Below, one piece after another: positions 2,602 through 29,783 of a stretch of 64,000 bases of DNA; positions within the stretch are counted from its first letter, which is position 1, and every line of letters begins with the position of its first letter. Origin of the DNA: Microbacterium sp. NC79 (GTDB lineage: Bacteria; Actinomycetota; Actinomycetes; Actinomycetales; Microbacteriaceae). The stretch spans positions 186,001-250,000 of the forward strand of contig NZ_JAHQYI010000001.1 of NCBI RefSeq assembly GCF_019061125.1. The letters run 5' to 3'. Both the position numbers and the translations under genes were made by a program. Under the pieces are notes generated by a model. That model saw nothing but the letters and a program-made list of their open reading frames with translations, had not been told where the DNA came from and made no database searches.

Positions 2602-2619
2602 GCCAAGAAGGAGTAACTC

Positions 2620-3801
2620 ATGACGGATGTTGACATCAAGAAGGGCCTCGCGGGCGTCGTCGTCGACGTGACGAGCGTCTCGAAGGTGAACCCGGAAACC
2701 AACAGCCTGCTGTACCGCGGATACCCGGTGCAGGAGCTGGCCGCAACGCAGCCGTTTGAAGCTGTGGCGCACCTGCTGTGGACCGGCAACCTGCCCACCG
2801 ACGCGGAGCTTGCTGAGCTGCGCGCAACGGAGCGCAAGTATCGCGCCCTGGCTCCCGAAGTAAAGGCAGCGATCGACATTCTGCCGACGAGCGCACACCC
2901 GATGGATGAGGTCCGCACCGCGGTCAGCGTTATCGGTGCGCTCGACGCCACGGGTGACGTGATGGACGCTGCCGGAACCCCGGAGCAGAACCAAGAGCGT
3001 TCCATTCGCCTGTGGGCTCAGCTGCCTGCCATCGTGGCATACGGTCAGCGTCGTCGCCGTGGTGAAGAGCTCGTCGCCCCGCGCGATGACCTCGACTACT
3101 CGGCAAACTTCCTGTGGATGACGTTCGGCGAAGAGCAGGACGAGGTCGTCGTTGACGCCTTCAACCGCTCGATGACGCTGTACGCAGAGCACTCGTTTAA
3201 CGCATCGACATTTACGTCGCGCGTTATTGCCTCCACGCTGAGCGACCTGTACTCGGCTGTCACCGGTGCCATCGGTGCGCTCAAGGGCCCGCTGCACGGC
3301 GGCGCCAATGAGGCCGTTCTGCACATCTTCAACGACATCGGTTCGGCCGAAAACGTGAAGCCGTGGCTGGATCAGGCTCTCGGCGAGAAGCGCAAGATCA
3401 TGGGCTTCGGTCACCGCGTCTACAAGCGTGGCGACTCGCGTGTTCCCACGATGAAGGCAGCCCTCGACACCCTCGTGGCGCACTACAACCGCCCCGATGT
3501 TGCCGAGCTGTACGACGCCCTCGAGAGCGAGTTCGTTGGCCGCAAGGGCATTTACCCGAACCTCGACTACCCGTCGGGTCCGGCGTACAACCTGATCGGT
3601 TTTGACACGCTCACGTTCACGCCGCTGTTCGTGGCCGCTCGCGTCACCGGCTGGACCGCGCACATCATGGAGCAGCTTGCTTCGAACGCGCTGATTCGCC
3701 CGCTGTCGGAGTACGTCGGCCCGGACGAGCGTCACATTGACGGCTACGTTGCCACCGAAGCGGAGCTTGCAGCAGCAAACCGCGAGGCAGAAGCCGAGTA
3801 A
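2620..3801 (+). CDS. prpC: 2-methylcitrate synthase PrpC
   Basis: A 393-residue citrate synthase family protein that condenses propionyl-CoA with oxaloacetate. The citrate synthase signature GFGHRVYKRGDSR is near residue 262-274, and the LHGGAN histidine motif near 227-232. The short type II-like length, and the place directly behind prpD-prpB, favour methylcitrate synthase over the housekeeping citrate synthase. AAGGAG precedes the ATG. It is the last gene of the operon and is followed by a strong hairpin. Confidence 0.93.
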   Translation: MTDVDIKKGLAGVVVDVTSVSKVNPETNSLLYRGYPVQELAATQPFEAVAHLLWTGNLPTDAELAELRATERKYRALAPEVKAAIDILPTSAHPMDEVRTAVSVIGALDATGDVMDAAGTPEQNQERSIRLWAQLPAIVAYGQRRRRGEELVAPRDDLDYSANFLWMTFGEEQDEVVVDAFNRSMTLYAEHSFNASTFTSRVIASTLSDLYSAVTGAIGALKGPLHGGANEAVLHIFNDIGSAENVKPWLDQALGEKRKIMGFGHRVYKRGDSRVPTMKAALDTLVAHYNRPDVAELYDALESEFVGRKGIYPNLDYPSGPAYNLIGFDTLTFTPLFVAARVTGWTAHIMEQLASNALIRPLSEYVGPDERHIDGYVATEAELAAANREAEAE

Positions 3802-6800: not shown

Positions 6801-7366
6801 ACGGAACCTTCCGGATCTGCCGAGAAATCATCGGCCGGCTCGCCTTCGTTGGCCACCACAGCCGTGGTTCCGTCCGCAGACAGCGCGACCATATCGGGGA
6901 GTGCGCCGACCGTGACCGAGCCCAGAATCGTCGGCTCGTCCGCGTTCGCGTCGAAGAACAGGATCGTGCCCTGATCGGTCTTGACCGGCGCTTCGAAAGC
7001 GATGACGCCGAGGCCATCTGCGCGGACGGCGATGGAGTTGGCGACGCCCGTGCCTTCCACGGAGTACAGGTGCGTCATCGCGGCCGGGTCGTCGGCATCG
7101 AGGACCGAGACGGAACCCGCTTGCGCGTTTACGACGAAGAGGCGGCTGTTGTAGGCGGCAACAATTTCCGCGGCGGATTCGTCAAAGACGCCCGTCTCGA
7201 ACGTGCCGATCGGTGCGAGGGTGATGCGGGCGTCGGTTGACGTGTGCTCGAGGGGGTCGGCGACGATAGCGGCGGTGGCGGGCAGCGGTGCGGTGAGCAC
7301 CAGCGTGCACGCCACCGCCGCTACCGCGACGGTTCCCGCAGCACGGCGGAGGGGACGCGAAAGCAT
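3869..7366 (-). CDS. choice-of-anchor I / 5'-nucleotidase, LAxTG-anchored surface protein
   Basis: An exported 1165-residue protein. I place the start at ATG 7366 because AGGA lies 7 nt upstream and a good signal peptide follows (Arg-rich, hydrophobic, ending near ATAAI). Order of parts: a beta-propeller-like choice-of-anchor I domain (about 35-545); a metallophosphatase domain with NDFHGR (about 557), GDNIG, GNHEFD (about 630) and GHTH (770-773); a 5'-nucleotidase C-terminal domain (about 850-1060); an Asp/Ala/Ser-rich low-complexity linker; LANTG at 1130-1134, a membrane span and an RRRR tail. LAxTG is the class E sortase signal of high-GC actinobacteria. The family hydrolyses nucleotides or UDP-sugars outside the cell to scavenge nucleoside and phosphate. 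The exact substrate is not shown. Confidence 0.9.
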   Translation of the reverse strand: MLSRPLRRAAGTVAVAAVACTLVLTAPLPATAAIVADPLEHTSTDARITLAPIGTFETGVFDESAAEIVAAYNSRLFVVNAQAGSVSVLDADDPAAMTHLYSVEGTGVANSIAVRADGLGVIAFEAPVKTDQGTILFFDANADEPTILGSVTVGALPDMVALSADGTTAVVANEGEPADDFSADPEGSVAVVSLPATVSAAQQSDVRIADFHAFEGAALPADVRVFGPTPEADFAVSRNLEPEYVTIDGATAYVTLQEANALATVDLATATVTDITALGFKDHSLPANALDPSDKDGRFEQRTYDNLFGMYMPDGIASYQANGTTYLVTANEGDAREWGDYAEPSRVKDLADDGYGPACANFDGLTGNAELGRLNVTRELGFNAEAGCYDELYAFGGRSFSIFTTDGTLVFDSGSAFEQITFDANGDFVNSNHTEANFEGRSDDKGPEPESVAVGTVGDRTYAFVGLERVGGIIVYDITSPADAAFVTYVNNRDFSVDPEVDLSAAGDLGAEGVTFIPASASPTGEPVLAVANEVSGTTTLFAIDDGLTEVQIVNVNDFHGRIEANLGSGEPGAAVLAGAISTLTAENPNTLFVSAGDNIGASTFTSFIDDDNPTIDALVASGLVASAIGNHEFDLGMDDLIDRVVPRFGGPQYALGANVYDRATGEPALDEYSISTVDGVRIAFIGTVTTETPAMVPAPGIAAVTFGDELEAANRVAEELTAADAADVIVLLTHNGQATESCADLTDTTTAYGELVNGASSRIDAIISGHTHQAYSCEIEDPEGQLRPVIQAHQYGTTLGQISVTVDSASKELLSISGALLPLADGGTALYPADEDVAAIVSAAAEVAQEKGGVTVGTISADILRGGDNGSDRGIESPMGNLIADVMLWATTPVAALEARAASEAPAAPVADIAFMNPGGLRADLLYGTDGSVTYRDVANVQPFANTITTVTLTGAQIKSVLEEQWQPEGASRPKLHLGVSEGFSYTYVEDAPRGEHIVTMTLNGAPIDPAMTYTVAANSFLANGGDNFFTFAEGTNRVDTGQADLGITVAYFAAHPVVSPAPLGRAVLAEEPGQADADTDSSGSGGEADADAHADADGSAGSAGSAADGSAGSASSGSGTSSGAGGGLANTGSDAPYGLALGASVLVASGLLIVALRRRRVHS

Positions 7367-7500: not shown

Positions 7501-9918
7501 TTACGCGGTGGCGGCGCGCATGTGCTCCAGGTCATCGAGGTGGTCGTTGAAGCCGCGCAGGGCAACCGTGGGCACTTCGGTCTGCACGACGGCCTGAAGT
7601 TCGCGGATGAGAGCGGCGGAACCATCGGGCAGCGCGATCGATGGCAAGGCACGGCCGATGAGCTGCCCCATGGCCTGACCCTGCGTGTGTGCGAAGGAGG
7701 CGAGCTCGCGCGGTGCACGCGCCGCGTAGTCGGCGACCAGCGCGCCCTGTTCGATACCCCAGAACCCGTCGGCCATCGCGCTGAACTCACGGTTCGACAG
7801 CGTGCCGCTGGTCAGTCGTGCCCAGGCTTCGGCCTTCGCCTCGGGCGTCGGCAATGCAGCGGTCGAGCGGAGTGCGGCGTGCGCACCCGCCGTCGTACGG
7901 TCGCGCTCGGCCTCGACCGCAATCGCCGATCCCTGACCGAGTTCGGCGAGACGGGTGACGTACATCCATCGCACCGCGGGGTCGGTGGCGGCATCGAGGC
8001 GCTGCTGCAGTTCGACAGGGTCGCTGGCTGCGTGCGCGAAAATGCGCTCGGCGGCTGCGTGCAAGTGGGTCTTCGGTGAATCCAGTACGAGACGGGAAAG
8101 CTCCGCGAGCAGGTCGAGGTGCGCCCCGATCGTGTCGACGCTCGAGTGCGCGGCGGCCATGCGCAGGGCGAGTCCGATGGCGCCCTCAAACACGGTGGCG
8201 TCCTCTTCATTCACGAGTTGCGTGCGCGCCAGGGTCATGAGGCTCGTGGTCGTGCGGGTGCCGCGCTGCACACCGGCGACCGCGGTCGCCCACAGCAGGC
8301 CACGCGTGAGCGAGCGGTCGATCGAGCTCAGCACGCCGTCGAGTGTCTCCTTCGACGCGGCGTCGAGCTCTAGCGCGGCGTACGTCTCATCGAGCGCGTT
8401 CGGCAGAACGGCCAGGCCCGCGAAGTCATCAAGGCGCACCGGCGCGTCAGCCAGATCGACGATCTCTTCGCGCACGACGGAACCATCGGTTCCGTAGCCG
8501 ACAACGGTGAACCGGTGCGGGCGACTTCCGGTGCGCGTCAGCACCGGAACCTCACCGTCACGGGTCACGGTGATGGTGTCAAAGCCCGTCGTGCGCAGCC
8601 AGGCGGCAGCCCACGAACGCACATCGCGGTCGGTCGCCGCGTCGAGGGCGTCGAGGAAGTCTGCGAGCGTCGCGGTGCCAAACGGGTGCGCAGACAGGTG
8701 CGCGTTGACGCCGCGAAGGAAGTCATCTTCGCCGAGCCAGGTCACGAGCTGGCGCAGCACCGCGTTGCCCTTGGCATACGTGATCATGTCGAAGTTTGCG
8801 AAGGCGGTATCGACGTCGACGAGATTTTCGGCGTCTTCCGCAATCGGGTGTGTGGAGCGGCGCGAGTCGGCCGAGTACGCGCTGAGCTTGCGGCCGAGAG
8901 CCGCGGCCGTCCACGTGTCGGTGCCGGTTGCGCGTCCGGAGACTTCGTAGCCCATGTAATCGGCGAACGACTCGTTGAGCCACGTGTCTTCCCACCAGGC
9001 CATCGTGACGAGGTCGCCAAACCACATGTGCGCCATTTCGTGCGCGATGACCGAGCTCATGGCGTGACGCTGCATCGCGGTCGGCTCTCCCGGGGTGAGC
9101 AACTCATCACGGAAGGCCACGCATCCGGGAAACTCCATTGCTCCCCAGTTCAGGCCAGGCGTGAATACCTGCTGGTAGTCCGCGAACGGGTAGGGCTCAT
9201 CAAACGTGGAGGTGTAGTGCGCAAACGCGCGGGAGGTCACAAATTTGAGGCTGTCAAACTCGCGATCAAGAGCTTCGGCCTGCGAGGCGCGGGCGTGCCA
9301 GCCGAACGGTAGCGTGCCGCTGGGTGCGAGCGCGTACGGTTCATCCCACGTTTTGGAGACAAACGGGCCACCGCAGACGAAGAAAATGTAGGTGGAGAAG
9401 CGCGGGGTGGGCTGGAAGAACCAGGTGTCACCCTCGCGGCGATCGAACAGGCCGTTGCCGAGCACCGTCCAATGGCTCGGAGCGGTGACCGACACCGTGA
9501 ACGACGTCTTGATATCGGGCTGGTCAAAGCAGGGGATGACGCGTTGTGCGATGTCCATCGCAGTGAAGCCGCTGACGTAGCGCTCATTGTCTGCGGGATC
9601 GATCACGACCGTCATGCCATCACCGTCGGTGACATACGGCATGCGAGCGCGCACCGTCACGGTGTTGTCAGCAGCCAGCTCACTCAGCGTGATGCGGCGA
9701 CCGTCATACTGCCACGTGGTTCCGCCCGACGTCTCAACGACGAGATCTGTCGCATCGGTTAGCTCCAGAAAGCTCGAAGCACCCGCAGTCGCGCACGCGA
9801 ATGTGATCGTTGCGACCAGATCGTACCGATCGGTCGGGGTGAGATCGAGATGAACGACAGTGTCGACATCAGAGATCAGAGCGGAACGGGTACGGGCATC
9901 AGCAAGCGTGAGAGACAC
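7501..9918 (-). CDS. pepN: M1 family aminopeptidase (aminopeptidase N)
   Basis: An 805-residue cytosolic zinc aminopeptidase that removes N-terminal residues from peptides. The zinc motif HEMAH is at 293-297, and the third ligand glutamate follows 18 residues later (316). The exopeptidase loop reads GAMEF at 259-263, where most M1 enzymes have GAMEN. The catalytic Glu262 is kept. An ERAP1-like C-terminal helical domain fills residues 500-805. I chose GTG 9918: the reading frame stays open for 95 codons upstream, but that part is Pro/Arg-rich and overlaps the next gene. TACGGT ends 6 nt before this GTG, the leaderless spacing seen elsewhere here. Confidence 0.92.
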   Translation of the reverse strand: MSLTLADARTRSALISDVDTVVHLDLTPTDRYDLVATITFACATAGASSFLELTDATDLVVETSGGTTWQYDGRRITLSELAADNTVTVRARMPYVTDGDGMTVVIDPADNERYVSGFTAMDIAQRVIPCFDQPDIKTSFTVSVTAPSHWTVLGNGLFDRREGDTWFFQPTPRFSTYIFFVCGGPFVSKTWDEPYALAPSGTLPFGWHARASQAEALDREFDSLKFVTSRAFAHYTSTFDEPYPFADYQQVFTPGLNWGAMEFPGCVAFRDELLTPGEPTAMQRHAMSSVIAHEMAHMWFGDLVTMAWWEDTWLNESFADYMGYEVSGRATGTDTWTAAALGRKLSAYSADSRRSTHPIAEDAENLVDVDTAFANFDMITYAKGNAVLRQLVTWLGEDDFLRGVNAHLSAHPFGTATLADFLDALDAATDRDVRSWAAAWLRTTGFDTITVTRDGEVPVLTRTGSRPHRFTVVGYGTDGSVVREEIVDLADAPVRLDDFAGLAVLPNALDETYAALELDAASKETLDGVLSSIDRSLTRGLLWATAVAGVQRGTRTTTSLMTLARTQLVNEEDATVFEGAIGLALRMAAAHSSVDTIGAHLDLLAELSRLVLDSPKTHLHAAAERIFAHAASDPVELQQRLDAATDPAVRWMYVTRLAELGQGSAIAVEAERDRTTAGAHAALRSTAALPTPEAKAEAWARLTSGTLSNREFSAMADGFWGIEQGALVADYAARAPRELASFAHTQGQAMGQLIGRALPSIALPDGSAALIRELQAVVQTEVPTVALRGFNDHLDDLEHMRAATA

Positions 9919-12807: not shown

Positions 12808-14307
12808 TTGGTACGTCAAATCCCGCATTTTGTAGGCGGAAAGCGCACTGAAGGCACATCGGGTCGTTTCGCCGATGTCTTCGATCCATCAACAGGTGAC
12901 GTGCAGGCGCATGTCGCCCTCGCAAGCACCGCTGAGGTTTCCGCCGCCATCGACACGGCACAGCGGGCGCAGGTGGCGTGGGCAGCGACCAACCCGCAGG
13001 TGCGTGCTCGCGTCATGATGAAGTTCGTCGAACTCATTGCCCGAGATCGCGACGAACTGGCAAGGCTGCTCTCCAGCGAGCACGGCAAGACGTTTGAAGA
13101 CGCCAAGGGCGACATTCAGCGCGGCGTCGAGGTGATCGAGTTCTGTATCGGAGCCCCGCACCTGCTGAAGGGTGAGTACACCGTGGGTGCAGGCACAGGC
13201 ATCGACGTGTATTCGATGCGCCAAGCGCTCGGTGTCGTCGCCGCGATTACCCCCTTCAACTTTCCCGCAATGATTCCGCTGTGGAAGATTGGCCCAGCGC
13301 TCGCGTGCGGCAACGCGGTGATTCTCAAGCCGTCGGAGCGCGACCCTTCTGTTCCGATTCGGATTGCGGAGCTCTTTCAAGAAGCGGGTCTTCCTGACGG
13401 TGTGCTCAACGTGGTCAATGGCGACAAAGAAGCCGTTGATGCGATCCTGCATGACGAGCGGATCGCCGCGGTGGGCTTTGTCGGCTCGACCCCCATCGCG
13501 CAGTACATCTACTCCACAGCGACGGCAAACGGCAAGCGTGCGCAGTGCTTTGGCGGTGCCAAAAACCACATGATTGTGATGCCGGACGCTGACCTCGACC
13601 AGGTGGCTGATGCACTCATCGGCGCCGGCTATGGTTCCGCAGGCGAACGCTGCATGGCCATCTCGGTTGCCGTTCCGGTCGGGGAGGAGACGGCGAATGC
13701 GCTCTCGTCAAAGCTCGCCGAGCGCGTCGCTCATCTGAAGATCGGCCCGGCGCTCGCGGAAGGCATGGATTACGGCCCGCTCATCACTCGCGATGCGGTC
13801 GATCGCGTCAGCGGTTACATCCAAACGGGTATCGACGAGGGTGCCATGCTGCTCGCTGATGGTCGCGGCTATCGCGTCGAGGGTTACGAAAACGGTTTCT
13901 ACCTCGGACCGACCCTGTTCGACCACGTCACCACCGCGATGACGGTGTACCGCGAAGAAGTATTCGGTCCCGTGCTGATCATCGCCCGCGCCGAGTCGTA
14001 TGAAGAGGCGCTCGCAATGGCAACCGATCACGAGTACGGCAACGGCGTGGCGATCTTCACGCGGGATGGTGACACCGCGCGTGACTTCACGACGCGCGTG
14101 CAGGTCGGCATGGTCGGCGTGAACGTGCCGATTCCGGTGCCGATCGCCTATCACACGTTCGGCGGCTGGAAGAAGAGCGGATTCGGCGACCTCAACCAGC
14201 ACGGCCCCGATTCCTTCCGCTTCTACACCAAGACCAAGATGATCACGAGTCGTTGGCCGTCGGGCATCAAAGAAGGTGCCAGCTTCGTCATTCCCACCAT
14301 GAATTGA
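12808..14307 (+). CDS. mmsA: CoA-acylating methylmalonate-semialdehyde dehydrogenase
   Basis: A 499-residue NAD-dependent aldehyde dehydrogenase of the MmsA class. It converts (methyl)malonate semialdehyde to propionyl-CoA or acetyl-CoA with loss of CO2, the last step of valine breakdown. The catalytic cysteine lies in AGERCMA (near 274), and the EVFGPVL and GGWKKSGFGD motifs are present near the C-terminus. The start is TTG 12808, as no in-frame ATG or GTG fits and AGGGG lies 7-8 nt upstream. It heads a four-gene valine operon. Confidence 0.93.
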   Translation: MVRQIPHFVGGKRTEGTSGRFADVFDPSTGDVQAHVALASTAEVSAAIDTAQRAQVAWAATNPQVRARVMMKFVELIARDRDELARLLSSEHGKTFEDAKGDIQRGVEVIEFCIGAPHLLKGEYTVGAGTGIDVYSMRQALGVVAAITPFNFPAMIPLWKIGPALACGNAVILKPSERDPSVPIRIAELFQEAGLPDGVLNVVNGDKEAVDAILHDERIAAVGFVGSTPIAQYIYSTATANGKRAQCFGGAKNHMIVMPDADLDQVADALIGAGYGSAGERCMAISVAVPVGEETANALSSKLAERVAHLKIGPALAEGMDYGPLITRDAVDRVSGYIQTGIDEGAMLLADGRGYRVEGYENGFYLGPTLFDHVTTAMTVYREEVFGPVLIIARAESYEEALAMATDHEYGNGVAIFTRDGDTARDFTTRVQVGMVGVNVPIPVPIAYHTFGGWKKSGFGDLNQHGPDSFRFYTKTKMITSRWPSGIKEGASFVIPTMN

Positions 14308-14313: not shown

Positions 14314-15465
14314 ATGAGTATGACCACCACGACCGACGAAGAACTGTCGGCCATTCTGGACGCGGTTCGAGATTTTGCGGCATCGGAGCTGGCCCCGCAT
14401 GCCGCCGAGTGGGATGAGAACGGAACCTTCCCGCGCGACACGCTGCAACGCGCCGGGGCGCTGGGACTCGGCGGCATTTACGTCGCAGAAGATGTGGGCG
14501 GAGCCGCGCTCAGCCGCTCAGATGCGGCCGCGATCTTTGAAGCCCTGGCGTACGCTGATCCGACGGTGACGGCATACATGACCATTCACAACATGGTCGG
14601 GTGGATGATCGACACATTCGGCAACGATACGCAGCGCCAGGCCTGGCTTCCAAAGCTCACAGCGATGGACATTTTCGGCGCCTATTGCCTGACCGAGCCT
14701 GGTGCTGGTTCGGATGCGGCGGCGATCACGACCTCTGCGATCCGTGCGGGGGATGAGTACGTCATTACCGGTGTGAAGCAGTTCATTTCCGGTGCGGGCG
14801 AGGCGGGCGTGTACGTCGTGATGGCGCGCACTGGCGAGCCTGGCGCTCGCGGCATTACGGCTTTCTTGGTTCCGGCTGACTCCGCTGGGCTCTCCTTTGG
14901 CATTAATGAAAAGAAGATGGGGTGGAAGGCGCAGCCCACTCGTCAGGTGATTCTCGATGAGGTGCGCGTGCCTGCGGCCAACGTGCTCGGCGACGTGGGC
15001 GGCGGATTCAAAATCGCGATGCGTGCCCTCAACGGCGGCCGCATCAATATCGCCGCGTGCTCGCTGGGCGGCGCATCGTGGGCGCTTGATCGGGCAGCGT
15101 CGTACGTGAAAGAGCGGTTCACATTCGGTGAGCCGTTGGCGGCCCGTTCGACAGTGCAGTTCACGCTCGCCGACATGGCAACCGAGCTGCGCGCCGCACG
15201 CGCGCTGGTGCGTGAGGCGGCGCGCGCAATTGATGATGGTTCCGCCGACGCCGCCATGCTGTGTGCGATGGCGAAGCGATTTGCGACAGACGCTGGGTTT
15301 AAGGTCGCGAACGACGCGCTGCAGCTGCACGGTGGCTACGGCTATCTCTCGGAGTATGGCATCGAGAAGGTGGTGCGCGACCTGCGCGTGCACCAAATCT
15401 TGGAGGGTACGAACGAGATCATGCGCGTCATCATTGGGCGTGAAGTGCTCGAGGGTAAGCGCTAG
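14314..15465 (+). CDS. acyl-CoA dehydrogenase (isobutyryl-CoA dehydrogenase type)
   Basis: A 383-residue FAD acyl-CoA dehydrogenase. It has the FAD/substrate motif CLTEPGAGSDA (about 127-137), the second signature with LHGGYGYLSEYGIEK (about 334-348), and ILEGTNEIM carrying the usual active-site glutamate. It starts 6 nt after mmsA, with only a weak ribosome site, so coupling is likely. The company of mmsA and mmsB points to isobutyryl-CoA (or 2-methyl-branched acyl-CoA) as substrate, as in ACAD8-type enzymes. Its electrons would pass to the ETF encoded at 18167-19929. Confidence 0.92.
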   Translation: MSMTTTTDEELSAILDAVRDFAASELAPHAAEWDENGTFPRDTLQRAGALGLGGIYVAEDVGGAALSRSDAAAIFEALAYADPTVTAYMTIHNMVGWMIDTFGNDTQRQAWLPKLTAMDIFGAYCLTEPGAGSDAAAITTSAIRAGDEYVITGVKQFISGAGEAGVYVVMARTGEPGARGITAFLVPADSAGLSFGINEKKMGWKAQPTRQVILDEVRVPAANVLGDVGGGFKIAMRALNGGRINIAACSLGGASWALDRAASYVKERFTFGEPLAARSTVQFTLADMATELRAARALVREAARAIDDGSADAAMLCAMAKRFATDAGFKVANDALQLHGGYGYLSEYGIEKVVRDLRVHQILEGTNEIMRVIIGREVLEGKR

Positions 15466-15518: not shown

Positions 15519-16415
15519 ATGACGAACATTGCATTCTTGGGCCTTGGCCACATGGGGCTCCCTATGGCAATCAACCTGCACAGGGCGGGACACACGATCG
15601 CGGGCTTTGACGTGGTTCCGGCCGCGATTGACGCGGCACGGGCCGCGGGCCTCACGATTGCCGATTCGGGTGTTGCCGCTTTGCCTGGAGCAGACGTGGT
15701 CATCACGATGTTTCCGAGCGGTAAGCACGTTATTGACGCATATTCCGGGCCGGATGGCCTCTTGGCTAACGCCGCACCCGACACGCTCTTCATCGATTGC
15801 TCGACCATTTCGGTTGCTGAGGCGCAAGAGGCGCACAACCTCGCAGCGGCAGCCGGGCATCGCAGCCTCGACGCACCGGTATCTGGTGGCGTCGTCGGAG
15901 CCGAGAACGGAACCTTGGCATTCATGATTGGCGGAGCGGACGACGTCGTGGCTTCCGCGCGCGAGTTGTTCGAGATCATGGGAGCACGCGTGGTGCACTG
16001 CGGTGGCGCCGGACTCGGCCAAGCCGCGAAGGTGTGTAACAACATGATTCTCGCGATCAGCCAGATCGCGGTGTCGGAGGCTTTTGTGCTGGGCGAGCGC
16101 TTGGGTCTTACACACAACGCCCTGTACGACGTTGCCGCCCATGCCTCAGGACAGTGCTGGGCGCTCACGACGAACTGCCCGGTTCCGGGCCCGGTTCCGA
16201 CCAGCCCGGCAAACCGTGAGTACCAGCCGGGCTTTGCCGGCGCACTCATGGCCAAAGATCTGGGGCTTGCGATCGCGGCCATTGAAGCGACAGGTGTGGA
16301 CGCCCAATTGGGACGGCACGCGCAACAGATGTACGCGGCGTTTGCCGCAGGAGAGGGCGCACACCAAGACTTCTCTGGCATTATCAACACCATCCGCGCG
16401 TCTTCTGGCGCGTGA
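15519..16415 (+). CDS. mmsB: 3-hydroxyisobutyrate dehydrogenase
   Basis: A 298-residue beta-hydroxyacid dehydrogenase. It has an N-terminal Rossmann motif GLGHMGLPMA (8-17), the substrate loop DAPVSGGVVGAENG (about 122-135), and the catalytic lysine in GLGQAAKVCNN (about 171). It oxidises 3-hydroxyisobutyrate to methylmalonate semialdehyde, the substrate of MmsA. GAGGAG precedes the ATG. It is the third gene of the valine operon. Confidence 0.94.
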   Translation: MTNIAFLGLGHMGLPMAINLHRAGHTIAGFDVVPAAIDAARAAGLTIADSGVAALPGADVVITMFPSGKHVIDAYSGPDGLLANAAPDTLFIDCSTISVAEAQEAHNLAAAAGHRSLDAPVSGGVVGAENGTLAFMIGGADDVVASARELFEIMGARVVHCGGAGLGQAAKVCNNMILAISQIAVSEAFVLGERLGLTHNALYDVAAHASGQCWALTTNCPVPGPVPTSPANREYQPGFAGALMAKDLGLAIAAIEATGVDAQLGRHAQQMYAAFAAGEGAHQDFSGIINTIRASSGA

Positions 16416-16485: not shown

Positions 16486-17262
16486 ATGACCGAGTTTGAC
16501 ACCATCCTCACCGAGACCCGTAGCCGCGTAGGCTGGATCACCCTGAACCGCCCGGAAGCGCTCAACGCGTTGAATGCGCAAACCATGCACGACGTCGTTA
16601 TCGCCGCCGAGCAGTTCGATGCTGATCCGGAGATCGGCGCGATCGTCATCACCGGTGCCGGTCGCGCTTTTGCCGCTGGCGCTGACATCAAGGAGATGGA
16701 AGACCGCTCGGGGCTGGAAATGCGACTGGGCAACTACTTCGCAGGCTGGGGGCGTCTCGTTGCGGTACGCAAGCCCGTTATTGCGGCCGTAAACGGTTTC
16801 GCTTTGGGCGGCGGATGCGAATTGGCGATGATGTGCGACATCATTCTGGCGGCAGAAACCGCGAAGTTTGGGCAGCCGGAGATTAACCTCGGTGTGATTC
16901 CGGGCATGGGCGGATCCCAGCGTCTCGCCCGTGCGATTGGTGCGTACAAGGCCGCTGAGTTGGTGCTGACCGGGCGCATGATTGATGCAGCCGAGGCTGA
17001 GCGTGCCGGGCTTGTGTCGCGCGTGGTTGCCGCCGACGCGTTGTTGGATGAAGCGCAAAAGATGGCCGACGTTATTGCGTCGAAGTCGCTCCCGAGCGTC
17101 ATCGCCGCGAAAGAACTGATTCGCACCTCTCTCGAGTCGCCCCTCGCGGAGGGCCTACGCCACGAGGCCGCGTTGTTTGCTTCGCTGTTTGACACGCGCG
17201 ATCAGAAAGAGGGCATGGCCGCGTTCCGCGAAAAGCGTCAGCCGAACTTCGAGAACCGCTAG
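16486..17262 (+). CDS. enoyl-CoA hydratase
   Basis: A 258-residue crotonase family protein. The oxyanion hole segment is [11 protein letters not shown] (about 63-73). Both catalytic glutamates are in place: GGCELAM (near 110) and [11 protein letters not shown] (near 130). In this operon it would hydrate methacrylyl-CoA. No separate 3-hydroxyisobutyryl-CoA hydrolase is seen, so that thioester step must be supplied elsewhere. The start follows GAGAGGG. Confidence 0.92.
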
Positions 17263-17431: not shown

Positions 17432-17971
17432 TCAGTCCGGGTCGCGGGTGGCTTCGGGGTCGTTCACGAAATCGCCCGAGCCCTCGCGAAAGCGCGCCAC
17501 AATCGCGACGAGCGCGGTGGTGTCGGCGTGGTTCATGCCGACCCGCTCGAAAACCTCGGAGTTGAGTGAGACGGTGGCCTCTTCGACCACGGCGCGGCCG
17601 ACGTCCGTCAGGAGCAACATCGCGGCGCGACCGTCAGCTGGATGTTTGACGCGCTCGATGTAGCCGTCCTTCACCAGGCGATCCACCGTGTTGGTGACGC
17701 TCGTGGGGTGCACCTGCAGGCGATCGATGGCGCTCGCGAGGGGCAAGCGCCCTGCGCGAGTAAATGCCAGCATCCGCAACATCTCGTAGCGTGCGAACGT
17801 CAATTTGTGAGGTTTCAGCGCCGCATCGACGCTGGCTTGCATCAGTTGCTGGGCGCGCATGACACTCGTGACGGCGGTCATTCCGGCGGCCGCATCATCC
17901 CATCCGTGCACGTGCCATTGCCGCCGCGCTTCAGCGATCGGATCAACACGATGTGGGTTCTGCCCTGCCAT
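17432..17971 (-). CDS. MarR family transcriptional regulator
   Basis: A 179-residue winged-helix protein. The recognition region HPTSVTNTVDRLVKDGYIER (about 90-109) and the DGRAAMLLLT wing are typical of MarR. It is divergent from etfBA. The ATG is 6 nt after TAGCGT, the leaderless spacing. An inverted repeat at 18021-18039 in the shared region is the best operator candidate. I infer control of etfBA and of itself, perhaps in response to an acyl-CoA or phenolic ligand. The ligand is not shown. Confidence 0.85.
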   Translation of the reverse strand: MAGQNPHRVDPIAEARRQWHVHGWDDAAAGMTAVTSVMRAQQLMQASVDAALKPHKLTFARYEMLRMLAFTRAGRLPLASAIDRLQVHPTSVTNTVDRLVKDGYIERVKHPADGRAAMLLLTDVGRAVVEEATVSLNSEVFERVGMNHADTTALVAIVARFREGSGDFVNDPEATRDPD

Positions 17972-18166: not shown

Positions 18167-18943
18167 ATGAAGATCATCGTCCTGGTCAAGGAAGTCCCTG
18201 ACACCTATGGTGACCGTAAGCTAAATCTACAAACTGGTCTGGCAGACCGCGGTGCAAGCGAGGCGGTGCTCGACGAGATTGGCGAACGCGCCCTTGAGGT
18301 CGCTCTCTCCTACGCCGATGCGAACGCAGGCACCGATGTCGTCGTGCTGTCGATGTCGCACGATGGTGCTGCGGCAACGATCCGCAAGGGCCTCGCGATG
18401 GGTGCGGCAAGCGCCGTACAGATTGCTGATGAGAAGCTTCTCGGCGCCGACCTGCGTCTGACCGCGCAGGTGCTCGCCGCTGCCATTGAGAAGACCGGCT
18501 ACGACCTTGTCATCGCCGGAAACACGTCGACTGACGGCTCTGGCGGTATGGTTCCGGCAATGATCGCTGAGATCCTCGGTGTCGTTTCTGCCACCGGCCT
18601 CAGCACCGTCTCGATCACGGACACCGGTGTCACCGGTACCCGCCCGATCGACGGCGGCTCGCAGACCGTCTCGGCAGCGCTGCCCGCAGTGATCTCGATC
18701 TCCGAGGCACTGCCTGACGCACGCTTCCCGAACTTCAAGGGCATCATGGCGGCGAAGAAGAAGCCGTTTGAGACGCTGTCGCTGGCAGATCTGAACGTCG
18801 ACGCCGATGACCTTTCGCAGGCACACTCCATCATGCTGACGGTCGCCGAGCGCCCGCCGCGTGAAGCCGGCGTCAAGATTGTGGACGAGGGCGACGCAGG
18901 CGAGAAGCTTGCTGAGTTCCTGATCCAGAACCGACTGGTGTGA
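18167..18943 (+). CDS. etfB: electron transfer flavoprotein subunit beta
   Basis: A 258-residue beta subunit of ETF, which takes electrons from acyl-CoA dehydrogenases. The start [11 protein letters not shown] is typical of EtfB. The nucleotide (AMP) binding segment around [15 protein letters not shown] (about 110-125) is present. A very strong GAGGAGGAG site precedes ATG. It is followed by etfA and a membrane cytochrome b in one run. Confidence 0.95.
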
Positions 18944-18954
18944 GGACGAGAGCA

Positions 18955-19929
18955 ATGACGAACTACCCCGCAGACTCGATTCTTGTCGTTCTTGAGACGA
19001 CGACCGCTGGTTCCCTCACGGGTGCCGCTCCCGGACTCCTGGGTGCCGCAGCAGGCGCCGGAACCCCGGTCGCGCTGATCGTGAACGGAACCGCAGACGC
19101 CGCTGCTGAAGCCGCCCGCCTGGGCGCCGCACACGTGCTGGTGACCGAAGGCTCCGACGCGCAGGCTCTCAACGTCGCCGCGGTTGACGCTGTCGCGGCC
19201 GCCGCCGACGCCGTTCAGCCCGACGCCGTTCTGCTTTCGCACTCGATCGATGGCCGCGACATCGCCGGACGCTTCGCCGTCCGTGCGAACGCTGCGATCG
19301 CCGTTGATGCCGTTGGCGTCTCGCGCGACGCCGAGGGCATCGTTGCCGAGCACTCCGTGTACGGTGGCGCGTTTACCTCCTCCTCGGCTGCCACGTTCGG
19401 TCCGCTCGTCGTAACCGTACGTCAGGGTGCGGTTGATGCCCGCGGCGAAGAGAAGCCGCTCGCATCCGAGACGCTCGCCGTTACTGCTTCAGGCAAGCCG
19501 GCCGCGACGATCGACTCTGTTGCTGAAGAGGTCGTTGAGTCGTCCCGCCCCGAGCTCCGCGGCGCTGCCAAGGTTGTCTCCGGCGGCCGTGGTCTCGGCT
19601 CGCAAGAGAAGTTCGTGCTCGTCGAGCAGCTCGCTGACGCCCTGGGCGCCGCCATCGGTGCGTCGCGCGCCGCTGTCGACGCTGGCTACATTCCGCAGTC
19701 GCACCAGGTCGGCCAGACCGGCGTTTCGGTGTCGCCGCAGCTGTACGTTGCCCTCGGTATCTCCGGCGCTATCCAGCACCGTGCAGGTATGCAGACGGCG
19801 AAGACGATCGTCGCGATCAACAAGGACGGCGAAGCTCCGATCTTCGACATCGCCGACTTCGGCATCGTCGGTGACCTCTTCACCGTGGTGCCGCAGTTGA
19901 TCACCGCGCTCGAGGCCCGGAAGAAGTAA
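18955..19929 (+). CDS. etfA: electron transfer flavoprotein subunit alpha
   Basis: A 324-residue alpha subunit. The C-terminal FAD signature [17 protein letters not shown] (near 265-281) is complete, preceded by SHQVGQTG. I chose ATG 18955, with GGACGAG upstream, over GTG 18940, which overlaps the etfB stop codon. It ends 2 nt before the cytochrome-b-like gene, so the electron donor and its probable membrane partner are made together. Confidence 0.95.
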
Positions 19930-19931: not shown

Positions 19932-21632
19932 ATGGCGACCTATAGCCGTTCGATCAGGCGAGGCTTGCCCCGCGTGGCCGGCGGAGACCCCTGGCCCGCC
20001 GGGGGCGACGCTCCCGCTGGTGCCGAGGTTCCGGTTGCCGATAGTGCACCCGCCGCTGCTGAGGCTGCCGCCGTTGCTGAGGCTGCCGCGGTTGCTGAGG
20101 CTGTCGCGCCCGTCGTTGCGGTAGCGGAACCAGTGGCTCCGGCCGTGGTGGAGGCTCCTGCCGCCGCTCCTGCCGTTGCTGCGTCGATGGCCGCCGCTGG
20201 TGGTGCCGCCCTGCGTCGCGGACTCCCGCGTGTTGCCGGGGGAGGCCCCTGGCCGCCCGCTGGCACCGCCCCTGCTGGTGTTGCTCCGGCCGCGCCTGCC
20301 GCTGCGTCTCCTGCCGCTGAGGTTCCCGTCGCTGCTGCTGCTGCCGTCCCGGCCGCTGTTGCTGAGGCCCCTGTCGCCGCTCCCGCCGCTGCCACGCCGG
20401 CCGCTGCTCCCGCTGTCGTCCAGGGCGACGCTGTCGCCCTGCGCCGCGGACTGCCCCGTGTTGCCGGTGGCGAAGGCTGGCCGCCAGCCGGCTCGGTCGC
20501 ACGACCCCTGGTCGCCGCACCCGTTGCCGAAACGCCCGCAGCAGCCGAAACCGAAGCCGCACCCGCAGCAGCCGAAACCGAAGCCGCACCCGCAGCAGCG
20601 GAGGTTCCGGCAACCGCCGTTGTCTCTGCGAAGGGTTACGACGTCGCGACGCCGTTGCCGTTCAAGCAGACGGTGTTCCCTGGCAAGTACGCGAACGTTC
20701 CCGTTGTTAAGCGTGAGTCCAAGCGCTACGGCAAGTTCACCGCAGCCCAGTGGTTCGGCATTGCCGTTCTCGCCGGCGGCGCCCTGCTGGGAGCGGCCGC
20801 GATGGCCGTCATCACGGTGCGCCTGCTGCTCAGCCTGCCGTTCATGCAGGACTTCCTGACGGCGTTCCCCGGTGAGTACGACCTGCCTGCGGGCTCGCAG
20901 CCGGGCTTCCCGGTGTGGGCGCAGTGGCAGCACTACTTCAACATGTTCCTGATGCTGCTGATCATCCGCACCGGATGGACGGTGCGCACCGATCGCCGCC
21001 CGAGCGCCTTCTGGACGCCGAAGCGGTCGGCCGACGGCAAGGGCAAGATCAGCCTCACGCTTTGGCTGCACCAGTCGCTCGACCTGCTGTGGGTCATCAA
21101 CGGCATTGTGTTCGTTGTGCTGCTGTTCGTCAGTGGTCACTGGGTGCGCATTGTGCCGACGAGTTGGGAAGTCTTCCCGAACGCGCTGTCGGCGATTCTG
21201 CAGTACGTATCGCTGGATTGGCCGACCGAACACGGTTGGGTCAACTACAACAGCATTCAGCAACTGATGTACTTCGTCGTGGTCTTCATCGCAGCCCCTG
21301 TTGCGATCATCACGGGTGTGCGCATGAGCAACCTGTGGCCGAAGAACGCCGAGAAGCTGAACAAGCTCTACCCGGTTGAGGTGGCGCGTGCGCTGCACCT
21401 GCCGACGATGCTGTTCTTTGTGCTGTTCATCATCGTGCACGTGTTCCTCGTGTTCGCCACGGGAGCATTGCGCAACCTGAACCACATGTTCGGTGGCACC
21501 GATGAGGTCAGTTGGACCGGCTTCTGGCTGTTCTTCGCAGGTCTGTGCGTCATGGTGGGCGCGTGGTTCGCTGCCCGCCCGCTCGTGATCGCTCCGATCG
21601 CGAAGCTGTTCGGAAAGGTCAGCGCCCGCTAA
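19932..21632 (+). CDS. cytochrome b-like membrane protein with three [10 protein letters not shown] motifs
   Basis: 566 residues in two parts. Residues 1-235 are an Ala/Pro/Val-rich, presumably disordered tail carrying three near-identical motifs, [14 protein letters not shown], at 9-22, 95-108 and 171-184. From about 245 there is a membrane domain with about five to six helices. Its histidines ([22 protein letters not shown]) suit haem ligation of the cytochrome b561/Ni-Fe-hydrogenase b type. The ATG is 2 nt after etfA, so it is translated with ETF. I infer that it passes electrons from ETF to menaquinone, with the repeats serving as docking motifs. No iron-sulphur ETF-quinone oxidoreductase is encoded beside it. 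The motif's function is unknown to me. Confidence 0.75.
20538..20591 (+). repeat. 27-bp tandem repeat, two copies
   Basis: Two exact 27-bp copies (20538-20564 and 20565-20591) encode the AAETEAAPA unit twice in the linker of the cytochrome-b-like protein. Such a repeat can expand or contract without breaking frame. Confidence 0.85.
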
Positions 21633-22396
21633 ACGTCTGACTGCGTTGCTCTGAGGCCTGCGTCGAATCCTTCGGCGTAGGCCTCAGCGCTTCCGGTGTG
21701 AAACATGTCGCGCTCGGGCGGGCGCACGATCGAGCGCGCGCCGGGAAGGTCAAGCGAACCGACGAGGTCACCGCGCCCGCGCACGATCGCGACCGGTCGG
21801 CGTGACGTCTTGCCCTTCACCAGGTCGGTGGCGCTCGCCAGTTCGTCTGCGACACACGGCTGGGTCACCACGAGGGGGCGGCCTTCGGCGTCGACGGAAC
21901 CACGAAGATCTTCAAAAACGTGCACGCCGGCAGCGCCGATGGCTTGGTCGGTTTGACCTTCGCGCCACGCGCGCCCCATGGTGTCGGTGATGAGCACTCC
22001 GACCCGCACGCCGAGGCGCGCGCGCAACGCTGCTGCCAGCTGCCGCGCGGAGGCGTCCGGATCCTCCGGGAGCAGCAGGATGGTTCCGTGCGGCGTATTA
22101 CTGGCGTCCACTCCCGCGGCCGCGGCAATAATGCCAAGGCGGCTCTGCACGATGCGGGTGGTGTGGCCTGATTCTGACGTGCGGGAAGCGACAACGCGCA
22201 CGGTCTCGCGGGTGATCGCGTCTTCGCGGTCGTCGGCAAGTAACGAGCGCCCCTCCGCCTTTGACACGATCTTGCTCGTCACGACCACAATGTCGCCATC
22301 GAGCAGCGGCGTATCTAACGCGGCAATGACAACATCGGCGAGATCCGCGCCCTGCGTGATCTCGCCGATGTTATCGAGCGCCCAAATCTGGAGCAT
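21629..22396 (-). CDS. cofE: coenzyme F420-0:L-glutamate ligase
   Basis: A 255-residue GTP-dependent ligase that adds glutamates to F420-0. Motifs [11 protein letters not shown] (about 40-50), GVDASN (near 95) and [17 protein letters not shown] (about 137-153) are characteristic. It is the stand-alone CofE form, without the nitroreductase-like domain of mycobacterial FbiB. No other F420 genes are nearby. Its TAG stop shares three bases with the TAA of the convergent cytochrome gene. Its ATG overlaps the TAA of the upstream GNAT by one base, so coupling is likely. Confidence 0.92.
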
Positions 22397-26222: not shown

Positions 26223-29200
26223 ATGGCGGAAGATGCCTCTACCCACATGACGACAGCCTCACACCGAGCAACGCAGCGTGCAGCCACCTGGATCAACGCG
26301 GCGGTGCCAAGTGATGACGACGCGCGTGAGAATCGTTTGCGCGCGTTCCTCACTCAGACCGAGGGCCGTGAGTTCACGTTTGGCGCGGTCGACGCGGTGC
26401 TTCGTCCCGACAGTCTCAGTGCTGCTGCAGCGCACTTTCATCGTCTCGCGCCATCGGTGCCAGACGAGGTGCCGTGGCGCTTACGATCGGCAATCCGCGC
26501 CACAGGTGCGATGGCTCCCGTGCTCCCTCGCCCCGTGGTTCCGGCCGTCCGCCGGGCCATGTGGTCGCTGATCTCTGACATCACGTGCGATGCGCGACCC
26601 AAGAAAGTGACGGCGTCGATTCAGGCGGCGTCAGCCAGAGGAGCGCGCCTCGAACTGGCGGTGCCTGCATCTCGCGCCCGCAGCGATGCCGCCGCCGCCG
26701 CATATCGACAGCGCGTCATAGAGTTGATGGCACGCGATGACGTCACCGCCATGACGTACCGCCTCGCACATGCCGCCCACCTGTCTGACCTCTGGGACTT
26801 TACTGACGTGGTGGATTCGGCGGTCGCCGCGGTGAACGAACTGTACGTTGCCGCCGCCGAGCACGATACGCGCCTCCTACTCGACGTGCGAGAGCTCCGC
26901 GAACTGGATCTCGCCATTGCCGTCTTTACCGAGGTGCTCGAGGGTGCCGGAACCACGCTGCAAGCGGGCATGAGCGTGCCTGCTGCGCTGGCTGATAGCC
27001 ACGACGCTGTGCAGCAGCTTGCCGCGTGGGCGCGGGAGCGCGCGCACGACGGTGCCGCGCCCATCATGATCCGCCTCACCGATGCCGCAGGCTCAAGCGC
27101 GGAGCGCGATGAGAACATTCTCAACGGGTGGCCGCAGCCAGCACTGGCCGGCCGCATGGATATTCTTGCGGCGCAGGTGCGCGAGCTTGACGCCCTCTTT
27201 GTCGACGACAATGCTGGCGCTGTCGACGTCAGCATCGCGACGCATGACCCGTTTGTCCTTGCCTATGCGGCCGAGCGGGGCACGCCAGAGCGCGCGGTTG
27301 AACTGGTTTTGCAGGCGGGTTTCGCGCCGGAGTGGGAGCGTGTGCTTCGTGACGAAGAGCTCGTCACGGTGGCGACGCTGGCTATTGATCCGCGTGACCT
27401 CGATGTTGATGCCGTTGCGGAGCGGCTTGCTGCCGCGGCGACGGTCATCGATGAGCTTGCTCGGATCACGGAAGAGGAGATTGACGCACACGGCGCGGAA
27501 CTCGTGCGTCGTGCGGAGACAAATCCACCGTTGGCGCGCCGAACGCTTGATCGTTCGGCAGAGCTCGGAGACATTGCCCCTGGCGCCCTGTTGCGCCCGA
27601 TTGCGACCGATTCTGTCGACCTGACACAGGCCGTGATGGGAATCGCGAGTAGCGCGCAGTCGAGCCAGACCCGTGCCCTCGACACCGCCGTTGATGGGCT
27701 GTTCTTCGGTGGTACCCCCTTCATCGAAACCGCCGTCTTTTCGGAGCGGGAGACCGATGAGCTCGCATACGGTGCTGCCGGGTTCCGTAACGCACAGACC
27801 ACGGATCCGTCGCTCGCTGCTAACAGGGAGTGGGCGCGCGCCACGCAACAGCGTGACGCTATCGCTGACGCCGACGCTGACGCCGACGCTGACTCTGGTT
27901 CTTGGCAGAGTGCGGCGGATGCCGTCGTGCACATTCGCCACGGACACGGTGAGTGGGAGGGGCTGGCAGCCGCCGACCGCGCGCTCGTATTGGAGCGCGC
28001 CGCGCATCACCTGGAAGCACGTCGTAGCGACCTGATTGTCGCGGCTCGTGTCACCGGCATCGCCTTTTCCGATGCTGACCGCGACGTGACATGTGCCGTT
28101 GACTTCGCCCGTTATTACGCCGCGACCGTGCGGGAACTTGATGCGGTATCTGGCGCCATTTTCGTGCCTGCAGGAATCACCGTTGCTGCCGGCGGTGCTG
28201 CCGACCTCATTGCCTCAGCGGCGGAGGCAACGCTTGCTGCCCTGGCCGCAGGCGGCGCGGTCATTGTGATGGCGCAACCGCATGAGCGGGGCGTCATCGC
28301 GCAGCTTGCAGAGGCGCTGTGGCAGGCGGGCGTGCCGCGCGATGCGTTGTGTGTTGCCGCCGGAACCGCGGAGCAGGCGGCGCAGGACGCGACCATCGAC
28401 AGCATTGTGATGACGGGTTCGGCCACCGAGGTTCATGCCGTCGCGCTGCAACAACCGCCGTTCGGCGTTAACGCGCGCGTGCTCGGCTGTAACACCATGA
28501 TCATTGCGCCGTCTGCCGACATTGATGAGGCAGCAGCGGCCCTCGTGAAGAGCGCGTTTTCGCGCGAAGGTGCCGCTTTCGAATCGGTCAATCTCGCGAT
28601 CTTGGCTGGCGGTATCGCACGCTCGGAGCGGCTCGCATCCGCGCTCGTGGAGCTGACCACATCGTGGGCCCAGCAGGCAGAGCGCGCGGCCGACGCCCGT
28701 GTTGATCGTGACGAGAAACGTCACATCGCCCTGGACGAGGCGGCGTTGTGGGCCCTGACCACGCTTGAGCCCGGGCAGCGGTGGCTCGTCGAGCCGCGAG
28801 AGCTGGCAGACGGAACCTTTACCCCCGGAATCCGGGTGGGGGTTGAATCCGGATCACGATTCGCGAGTGAGCGGTTTGCGGCACCGGTTCTTGGCATCAT
28901 GAGCGCGGGCGGTATTGGTGCGGCGACCACCCTGGCCAACTCGCTGTCGACGGGTGCCGTCGCCGCTCTCTTCACGACAGACGCGTCTGATGCCGAGCGA
29001 TGGCTCCGTCACGCTGAGGCGGGATCGCTCCACATCGGCCGCGCCACGATCGATCCCGTCGTGCAACGTCAGCCGTCGGGCGGCTGGCATGGTGCGGCGG
29101 TCGGTCAGGCGGCGAAAGCGGGCGGCCCCAACCGCCTCGCGACTCTCGGTGCCTGGCGTCCCACGGCAGGCCGCGCGGCAAGCGGCACACTGCACCTGCG

Positions 29201-29783
29201 CGGACTTGATTCTCGGGTCACGATGCTGATCGAAGCGGCGCAGTCCGACCTCGAGTTCGACGACTTTGAGTGGGTTCGTCGCGCCGCGCTCTCGGATGCG
29301 CTGGCATGGGATCGCGAGTTCGGGCACATTCGCGACGTGACACGTCTCGGCATTGAACGCAACCTGTTCCGCTATCGTCCCAGCACGATTGCGCTGCGTG
29401 CGGGGGCAGGAATTCCGGTACGCGAGGTTTTGCGGCTGGTGATTGCCGCCGTACGCGCACAGGCCGAGTTCACGCTCAGTACCGCGGAAGGGCTGCCGAC
29501 GGGGCTGCGCCGCGCACTGGGTGAGGCGGGCATGACTCTCTTCGTCGAAACAGACGCCGAGTTCGTGCAGAGATTGCTGGTGAGCGGCGTTGCGCGCGTT
29601 CGTCTCATCGGCGCGGATGCCGCAGATACCGCCGCACTCGTGCGCGCCGAATCCGTGGTTCCGGTCGCCATATTCGCGCACCAGGCGACAACCGTTGCCC
29701 GCGTTGAATTGCTGGCATATTTGCGTGAGCAAACCGTCAGCATCGGAGGCCGTGTCGTCGCGGCATGCGCAGACATCATCTAG
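26223..29783 (+). CDS. PutA homologue, probable double pseudoenzyme
   Basis: 1186 residues, collinear with bifunctional proline dehydrogenase/P5C dehydrogenase. The proline dehydrogenase half (about 80-420) keeps the framework but loses active-site residues: the VRLVKGA lysine is Asp287 (RLTD), QAY is QAG, the ASHN asparagine is Asp (ATHD, His341), and the RR substrate motif is absent. In the aldehyde dehydrogenase half (about 560-1030), the ETGG glutamate aligns with Arg752, GQRCSA reads GAAFES with Phe786 in place of the catalytic cysteine, and the NAD-binding EFFGPVL reads RFAAPVL. The GGxxG...KAGGP end is kept, which confirms ancestry. The frame is intact over 3.5 kb, so this is not simple decay. 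A regulatory or structural role is inferred. Confidence 0.8.
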   Translation: MAEDASTHMTTASHRATQRAATWINAAVPSDDDARENRLRAFLTQTEGREFTFGAVDAVLRPDSLSAAAAHFHRLAPSVPDEVPWRLRSAIRATGAMAPVLPRPVVPAVRRAMWSLISDITCDARPKKVTASIQAASARGARLELAVPASRARSDAAAAAYRQRVIELMARDDVTAMTYRLAHAAHLSDLWDFTDVVDSAVAAVNELYVAAAEHDTRLLLDVRELRELDLAIAVFTEVLEGAGTTLQAGMSVPAALADSHDAVQQLAAWARERAHDGAAPIMIRLTDAAGSSAERDENILNGWPQPALAGRMDILAAQVRELDALFVDDNAGAVDVSIATHDPFVLAYAAERGTPERAVELVLQAGFAPEWERVLRDEELVTVATLAIDPRDLDVDAVAERLAAAATVIDELARITEEEIDAHGAELVRRAETNPPLARRTLDRSAELGDIAPGALLRPIATDSVDLTQAVMGIASSAQSSQTRALDTAVDGLFFGGTPFIETAVFSERETDELAYGAAGFRNAQTTDPSLAANREWARATQQRDAIADADADADADSGSWQSAADAVVHIRHGHGEWEGLAAADRALVLERAAHHLEARRSDLIVAARVTGIAFSDADRDVTCAVDFARYYAATVRELDAVSGAIFVPAGITVAAGGAADLIASAAEATLAALAAGGAVIVMAQPHERGVIAQLAEALWQAGVPRDALCVAAGTAEQAAQDATIDSIVMTGSATEVHAVALQQPPFGVNARVLGCNTMIIAPSADIDEAAAALVKSAFSREGAAFESVNLAILAGGIARSERLASALVELTTSWAQQAERAADARVDRDEKRHIALDEAALWALTTLEPGQRWLVEPRELADGTFTPGIRVGVESGSRFASERFAAPVLGIMSAGGIGAATTLANSLSTGAVAALFTTDASDAERWLRHAEAGSLHIGRATIDPVVQRQPSGGWHGAAVGQAAKAGGPNRLATLGAWRPTAGRAASGTLHLRGLDSRVTMLIEAAQSDLEFDDFEWVRRAALSDALAWDREFGHIRDVTRLGIERNLFRYRPSTIALRAGAGIPVREVLRLVIAAVRAQAEFTLSTAEGLPTGLRRALGEAGMTLFVETDAEFVQRLLVSGVARVRLIGADAADTAALVRAESVVPVAIFAHQATTVARVELLAYLREQTVSIGGRVVAACADII
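27864..27893 (+). repeat. 12-bp tandem repeat coding for Ala-Asp
   Basis: GCTGACGCCGAC repeated two and a half times gives (Ala-Asp)5. It lies in the acidic linker between the two halves of the PutA-like protein. Confidence 0.8.

Follow-up and report, generated by a model that had tools for sequence, protein, structure and literature searches.

In the 64,000-nt stretch of Microbacterium sp. NC79 DNA analysed here (contig NZ_JAHQYI010000001.1, positions 186,001 to 250,000; hereafter the window), a 566-residue membrane protein, P0001, is encoded directly behind the genes etfB and etfA of an electron transfer flavoprotein (ETF). We lean slightly towards the view that P0001 is a dedicated, haem-only membrane acceptor for one actinobacterial clade of ETFs, and that the repeats in its tail are cytosolic ETF-docking motifs. 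The fuller proposal, which we hold tentatively and which falls somewhat short of an even chance, is that of a haem-only diheme ETF:quinone oxidoreductase whose tandem cytosolic motifs tether several ETFs, the tether having evolved a single time, on a pre-existing orphan cytochrome, and being discarded when the ETF leaves.

The association with ETF is seen most directly in gene order and co-occurrence. An earlier reading of the window, made from the sequence alone (the sequence-only reading), had placed etfBA just upstream of P0001 at a 2-nt spacing; both genes were confirmed by PF01012 and PF00766, and 2 nt indeed separate the etfA stop from the cytochrome ATG. In a fixed set of 198 genomes of the order of Microbacterium (10 candidates scored per genome for the cytochrome, 6 for EtfD and 11 for etfA), etfA was found in 145 at E 1e-10. 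Its scores fall into two groups, 345-652 bits in 24 genomes and 236 bits or less in all others. The cytochrome clade (above 230 bits) occurs in 41 of the 198 genomes, not counting seven genomes with best matches of 107-134 bits and an extra 232-bit match of G189, and 24 of these 41 have the RRGLP core of the tail motif, or more of it, in the cytochrome. The same 24 genomes hold the high-scoring etfA clade and the motif-bearing cytochrome (together, the module). The cytochrome directly follows etfA in 23 of them; in the remaining one, G130, an assembly break splits the tail, and the etfA contig ends approximately 250 nt past motif 1. In G104 the motif is worn down to three RRGLP/RTGLP cores. 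Tail-less cytochromes only are present in 17 genomes, 5 of which have no ETF match; G172 and G226, where a tail-less cytochrome is a second copy, are not among these 17.

A scan of species genomes yielded 21 named loci, a set that favours tailed relatives, as the tail supplied two of the six search words. At 19 of them etfA lies just upstream, with etfB also in view at 18, and two distant loci lack it. The etfA-linked loci include Microbacterium, Agromyces, Agrococcus, Myceligenerans, Promicromonospora, Brevibacterium and a metagenome-assembled genome (MAG) labelled Propionibacterium (L126), which may point to a wider distribution or to a wrong label on the MAG. Of the 19, 17 show two or three complete motifs in frame; in L128 a stretch of undetermined bases interrupts the tail, and the motifs of L133 are degenerate. 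In a phylum-wide sample of 346 genomes the cytochrome is matched in 16, and all matches above 460 bits belong to the window's own order; the best match outside it (245 bits) has no motif and no etf in the stretch viewed. The suggestion that P0001 is the membrane partner of ETF, and that the two should occur together, is thus supported by linkage and co-occurrence (24 of 24 genomes, 19 of 21 loci), electron transfer between them being predicted from these patterns. Compared with 23 other ETFs, EtfB of the module clade has E180-A-L-P183 in place of mostly D-Q-I-N, and EtfA is distinguished from 19 others by R129, D130 and R168; these residues are possible docking sites, which sequence comparison cannot tie to the motif.

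As the Microbacterium cluster runs from mmsA through acyl-CoA dehydrogenase, 3-hydroxyisobutyrate dehydrogenase (HIBADH) and enoyl-CoA hydratase (ECH) to etfBA, the motifs could instead bind acyl-CoA dehydrogenase or another catabolic enzyme and so assemble a metabolon at the membrane, ETF being merely an operon neighbour. However, no relatives of the window's acyl-CoA dehydrogenase, HIBADH or ECH were detected (tblastn, 1e-8) beside L094-L101, L105, L111, L126 and L132, many of them motif-bearing and all with etfBA. The constant neighbour of the motif-bearing cytochrome is ETF, not the valine enzymes.

The motif itself was described in the sequence-only reading as three near-identical copies 75-86 residues apart in a disordered Ala/Pro tail. 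An RRGLPR-type motif, represented by the peptide RRGLPRVPGGEPWPPAG, starts at residue 9 and again at 95 and 171, 86 and 76 residues further on; the copies are identical over ten residues, and WP comes two residues after each. The disorder and the Ala/Pro composition were borne out as well, the confidence score of the predicted structure (pLDDT) being below 50 over most of the tail and mostly 85-97 in the helices; the repeats are, though, to be assigned to an N-terminal tail. Because the copies are identical as protein while their codons differ at many synonymous positions, they do not represent a fresh DNA duplication. RRGLPR arose in 1 of 100000 shuffles of the tail, and 93 of 20000 shuffles contained a repeated 10-mer of any kind. 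The consensus from 394 contexts (375 distinct strings) is [LVI]-R-R-G-L-P-R-[VT]-[PA]-G-G-[ED]-P-W-P-P-A-G, in which the conservation of RRGLPR was preset, this being the search string; among the other positions, both G, the W and the P after it are conserved at 96-98%. Relatives usually have three copies, several lineages two and a few four, at spacings of 29 to 259 residues, and the first copy is at residue 7 or 9 in 45 of the 49 proteins with exactly three. With a slightly looser pattern, 90 of the 121 proteins listed (P0001 and 120 homologues) carry 1-4 copies and 31 none. Seven of these 31 have no starting M, and since at least four (P0008, P0009, P0043, P0094) start inside a motif copy, several look truncated; others may truly be without a tail.

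The motif gave no strong match in unrelated proteins when a 22-position profile was run against 38 genomes, 23 of them Microbacterium (the source genome included), with 150 of 159-347 first-look candidates scored in many genomes. Matches at E <1e-5 fall only in cytochrome frames, they are present in 22 of the 23 Microbacterium genomes, and at this threshold no other protein of the 23 carries the motif; weaker matches, from E 0.0017 upward, fall in other frames. G009 has no match and G003 has two motif-bearing cytochrome genes, while in G019 the match is in the frame after etfA, which is cut by the contig end, and the cytochrome begins another contig. This pattern suits a short linear motif that serves one dedicated partner better than a general targeting tag, a reading rejected because the strong matches are confined to cytochrome frames. 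Two further candidates were discarded. Twin-arginine (Tat) motifs are SRRxFLK-like and precede a hydrophobic helix, but the repeats here lie 76-86 residues apart in Ala/Pro sequence and the first helix comes only at residue 271. A chance low-complexity repeat does not agree with the 375 distinct conserved strings and the synonymous codon differences.

The haem-b-like membrane domain proposed earlier was found as well. P0001 is, as a cytochrome, a member of PF01292 (prokaryotic cytochrome b561 / Ni-hydrogenase-type cytochrome b; residues 326-522, 36.2 bits against a cut-off of 30.1, profile positions 2-179 of 179), with six predicted helices. A profile search at E 0.001 detected no other domain in it, including PF02754, PF05187 and PF21162. 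Lys and Arg number 7, 6, 3 and 2 in the inside segments versus 0, 1 and 1 in the outside ones, and the positive-inside charge rule hence predicts the tail to be cytosolic. Candidates for the paired haem-ligand histidines that the sequence-only reading had proposed to look for are His334, His380, His489 and His503, all in helices and invariant in sets of 14 and 66 sequences, as is His518 at a loop position. The four helix histidines are likely the ligands of two b haems, an assignment from sequence that follows the ligand numbers of FdnI. The best aligned folds for the membrane domain are formate dehydrogenase N gamma (1kqf_C) and hydrogenase-1 cytochrome b (6g94, 4gd3); plain Foldseek against the PDB returned no significant match for the cytochrome, and a PDB profile search only a weak one to a stretch of 6btm_D (E 0.012). 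Those two cytochromes serve iron-sulphur subunits of periplasmic enzymes, and FdnI gamma has four helices, whereas P0001 neighbours a cytosolic ETF, has two extra helices compared to FdnI and bears the motif-carrying tail. The nearest named protein is from Microbacterium sp. YY-03 (95% identity over residues 235-566).

Lineages without etfBA at the locus separate the tail from the haem domain. A full-length etfA of the module clade is present in 29 of another 33 Microbacterium genomes, and 28 of the 29 have at least one motif after etfA or in a nearby cytochrome; G023 was excluded from this judgement, as its etfA ends the contig. The other four (G007, G009, G026, G032) have no intact etfA match. 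The order in G007 is ECH, approximately 40 codons of the etfA 3' end directly past the ECH stop, and a cytochrome bearing a single motif. In G009, ECH is followed by a spacer resembling, by eye, a worn etfA end (no etfA match by tblastn at 1e-5) and then by a motif-less cytochrome starting MPSTPRTPQRGPSRV. G026 and G032 have tail-less cytochromes only, and G102 of the order sample is alike, with no ETF match. G027 has two copies, C13 behind acyl-CoA dehydrogenase and ECH with neither etfBA nor a motif, and another that has two motifs and accompanies etfBA. Three Microbacterium lineages thus have a locus free of etfBA, and the motif count is one in G007, zero in G009 with G027:C13 and zero in G026 with G032 and G102. 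In G003:C39 three motifs are kept and etfBA lies approximately 10 kb off on the same contig. Since the motifs vanish or shrink without etfBA and the haem domain stays, it is the tail, to a greater degree than the haem core, that tracks ETF, mostly closely, though with exceptions.

For a tree, 67 membrane domains were selected from the available loci, and every motif protein falls in one clade (99/99). On the starred branches of the tree the motif was gained once and lost three times (G026/G032/G102; G009/G027:C13; L133); the first of these groups sits on a long branch (0.69), and its placement is less sure. The earlier idea that the repeats are ETF docking tags thereby gains indirect support from the loss of motifs without etfBA and from their exclusivity, binding itself being predicted. 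The same losses bear on what else the tail could bind. An acyl-CoA dehydrogenase neighbour was undetected in G007 and G009 too, which would fit the catabolic-enzyme alternative. G027:C13, on the other hand, keeps acyl-CoA dehydrogenase and ECH upstream, and because only etfBA and the motifs are gone there, this locus separates ETF from acyl-CoA dehydrogenase as the partner; we consider docking to a catabolic enzyme quite improbable. Short, basic, membrane-proximal repeats could conceivably bind any partner or lipid, and recruit the cytochrome to a membrane complex such as the bcc-aa3 supercomplex. Such partners are not expected to leave with etfBA, yet the motifs do, and tail-less relatives manage without motifs, which leaves this explanation very improbable indeed.

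Two etfA remnants were seen between ECH and the cytochrome in two Microbacterium genomes with no other ETF match: a clear one of approximately 40 codons at L109:6994-7117, and one by eye only at L155, near 8065-8214. In L077, L078 and L081 (three genomes, family f6) a tail-less relative lies approximately 7 kb before another etfBA; in L077 photolyase, PspA and TPM-domain genes lie in between.

Known ETF acceptors were sought in the order sample. The EtfD query matches chain 9ojn_A, which we take to be the EtfD structure, at E 8.3e-192. EtfD relatives are present in 59 of the 198 genomes, in none of the 24 module genomes versus 58 of the 121 genomes with other ETFs (Fisher p 1.3e-6, uncorrected for relatedness). 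PF05187 is matched in 12 and PF21162 in 17 of the 198, and neither was found in the 24 module genomes. A whole-genome search of the source genome (2.86 Mb, 99% complete) gave no match to EtfD, PF05187, PF21162 or PF02754, in agreement with the earlier statement that no known ETF-quinone oxidoreductase (ETF-QO) is encoded. ETF-QO/ETFDH and FixCX (quinone-binding domain PF21162, [4Fe-4S] domain PF05187) are enzymes with flavin adenine dinucleotide (FAD) and [4Fe-4S]; they have the proposed task of ETF-to-quinone transfer in common with P0001, but both domains are absent from it and from its genome. The mycobacterial EtfD (Rv0338c / MSMEG_0690) has HdrD-like iron-sulphur clusters and one b haem (PMC13083937). 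It is an actinobacterial membrane protein passing ETF electrons towards menaquinone via haem b (PMC13083937), a role that may be similar to that of P0001, in which, however, no iron-sulphur domain was found; as said, the module genomes lack EtfD. EMO, the ETF:(methyl)menaquinone oxidoreductase of Syntrophus, is an ETF-linked membrane diheme b/iron-sulphur protein for a menaquinone (PMC8805022). The haems of P0001 are predicted, it has no iron-sulphur domain, and the available part of the EMO source mentions no repeat tail (PMC8805022). The CCG (HdrB/D-like) domain PF02754 of the EtfD/EMO type is absent from P0001 and from the whole genome. The sequence-only reading erred in calling the known ETF-QOs iron-sulphur flavoproteins, as EtfD and EMO are iron-sulphur/haem proteins and not flavoproteins.

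Several observations weigh against P0001 as the acceptor. To our knowledge, haem-only ETF oxidation has no precedent, the known ETF acceptors all having iron-sulphur clusters, and the cytochrome has no iron-sulphur or flavin domain. The haem domain persists at loci where etfBA is gone, and because it is kept there it would have an additional role. L133 (marine actinobacterium PHSC20C1, 5700-6860) keeps etfBA and the cytochrome with worn motifs, the remnants being VRQGLPRSSGDDP and VRRGLS. Finally, 55 of the 121 genomes with other ETFs are likewise without any of the known acceptors searched, so that the earlier argument, no ETF-QO and hence this protein, is right about the absence but is by itself no proof of the cytochrome as acceptor. 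On the same grounds the tail could serve as a scaffold that docks ETF beside a separate quinone reductase, the haem domain being no acceptor and its haems serving another task. In three lineages the haem domain has remained where etfBA has gone from the locus, tail-less relatives occupy different loci and also occur in genomes lacking any ETF match, and those 55 genomes seem to rely on an acceptor beyond the known ones searched. A scaffold of this kind stays live because the haem domain persists without ETF, the neighbours of tail-less relatives at the loci viewed are unrelated (photolyase, UPF0182, tRNA synthetase, glycosidase) and iron-sulphur and flavin domains are missing. Nevertheless, wherever the assembly permits a view (23 of 24 genomes of the order sample), the cytochrome follows the module ETF, and a dedicated haem domain on the same polypeptide would be odd for a scaffold. 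We regard the scaffold as unlikely.

If P0001 is the acceptor, acyl-CoA dehydrogenases, here probably the isobutyryl-CoA dehydrogenase of valine breakdown, would reduce EtfAB, which approximately three RRGLPRxxGG[ED]PWPP motifs of the cytosolic disordered tail would bind, keeping one or several ETFs near the cytosolic haem b. Electrons would leave the FAD of ETF singly and reach first the inner haem, for which His380/His489 are the likely ligands, then the outer haem, with His334/His503 as likely ligands, and finally menaquinone, with no iron-sulphur relay on the route. Haem binding, binding of ETF by the motifs, the electron path and menaquinone reduction by P0001 are all steps that we infer.

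In the open-licence literature searched, neither the motif nor this ETF-cytochrome pairing was found, the sole match to the RRGLPR string being a paper on ERK2 docking. P0001 would be new as an ETF-linked membrane protein in combining haem only with a repeated docking tail, and categorically new if direct ETF oxidation is true, as this would be ETF oxidation without iron-sulphur clusters. As a repeated docking motif gained and lost together with its presumed partner, it would also be a rare short linear motif whose partner is readable from genomes. By the searches made, EtfD and ETF-QO domains are both missing from 79 of the 145 ETF-bearing genomes of the order sample (24 that have the module and 55 that do not); for 24 of these 79 the module is a testable candidate acceptor. 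The module may represent an undescribed route from fatty- and amino-acid breakdown via ETF into respiration.

Table 1. Features of the P0001 locus in window coordinates (aa, amino acid residues).
Feature	Coordinates	Strand	Basis
Methylmalonate-semialdehyde dehydrogenase (mmsA), start codon not refined	12808..14307	+	TIGR01722 above cut-off
Acyl-CoA dehydrogenase, probably isobutyryl-CoA dehydrogenase	14314..15465	+	PF00441/PF02771/PF02770
3-Hydroxyisobutyrate dehydrogenase (HIBADH)	15519..16415	+	TIGR01692 above cut-off
Enoyl-CoA hydratase (ECH)	16486..17262	+	PF00378
etfB, ETF beta subunit, clade specific to the cytochrome module	18167..18943	+	PF01012
etfA, ETF alpha subunit	18940..19929	+	PF00766/PF01012; score gap sets clade apart
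Cytochrome b with motif-bearing tail, ETF-linked (P0001), 566 aa	19932..21632	+	Open frame; homologues
Disordered N-terminal Ala/Pro tail, aa 1-234	19932..20633	+	pLDDT mostly <50; cytosolic by positive-inside rule
Motif copy 1, aa 9-22	19956..19997	+	Translated sequence; codon comparison
Motif copy 2, aa 95-108	20214..20255	+	Translated sequence; codon comparison
Motif copy 3, aa 171-184	20442..20483	+	Translated sequence; codon comparison
Six-helix membrane domain, aa 271-560	20742..21611	+	PF01292; predicted helices; invariant His; fold match

The four genes upstream of etfBA on the same strand (Table 1) constitute a valine route. Isobutyryl-CoA is assigned as the acyl-CoA dehydrogenase substrate because of these neighbouring genes, and the enzyme is the presumed electron source for the ETF of the window. 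For etfA, whose start was not refined, the two candidates are GTG 18940 and ATG 18955, the latter being perhaps the likelier. Between ECH and etfB, a MarR-family regulator (17432-17971, minus strand) is a candidate regulator of the operon. A gene for F420-0:gamma-glutamyl ligase (21629-22396, minus strand) is convergent with the cytochrome gene and is found nearby at many Microbacterium loci. Elsewhere in the window there are methylcitrate-cycle genes (prpD-like, prpB and 2-methylcitrate synthase) at 158-3801 and a PutA-like protein of 1186 residues (26223-29783, plus strand) with proline dehydrogenase and aldehyde dehydrogenase domains.
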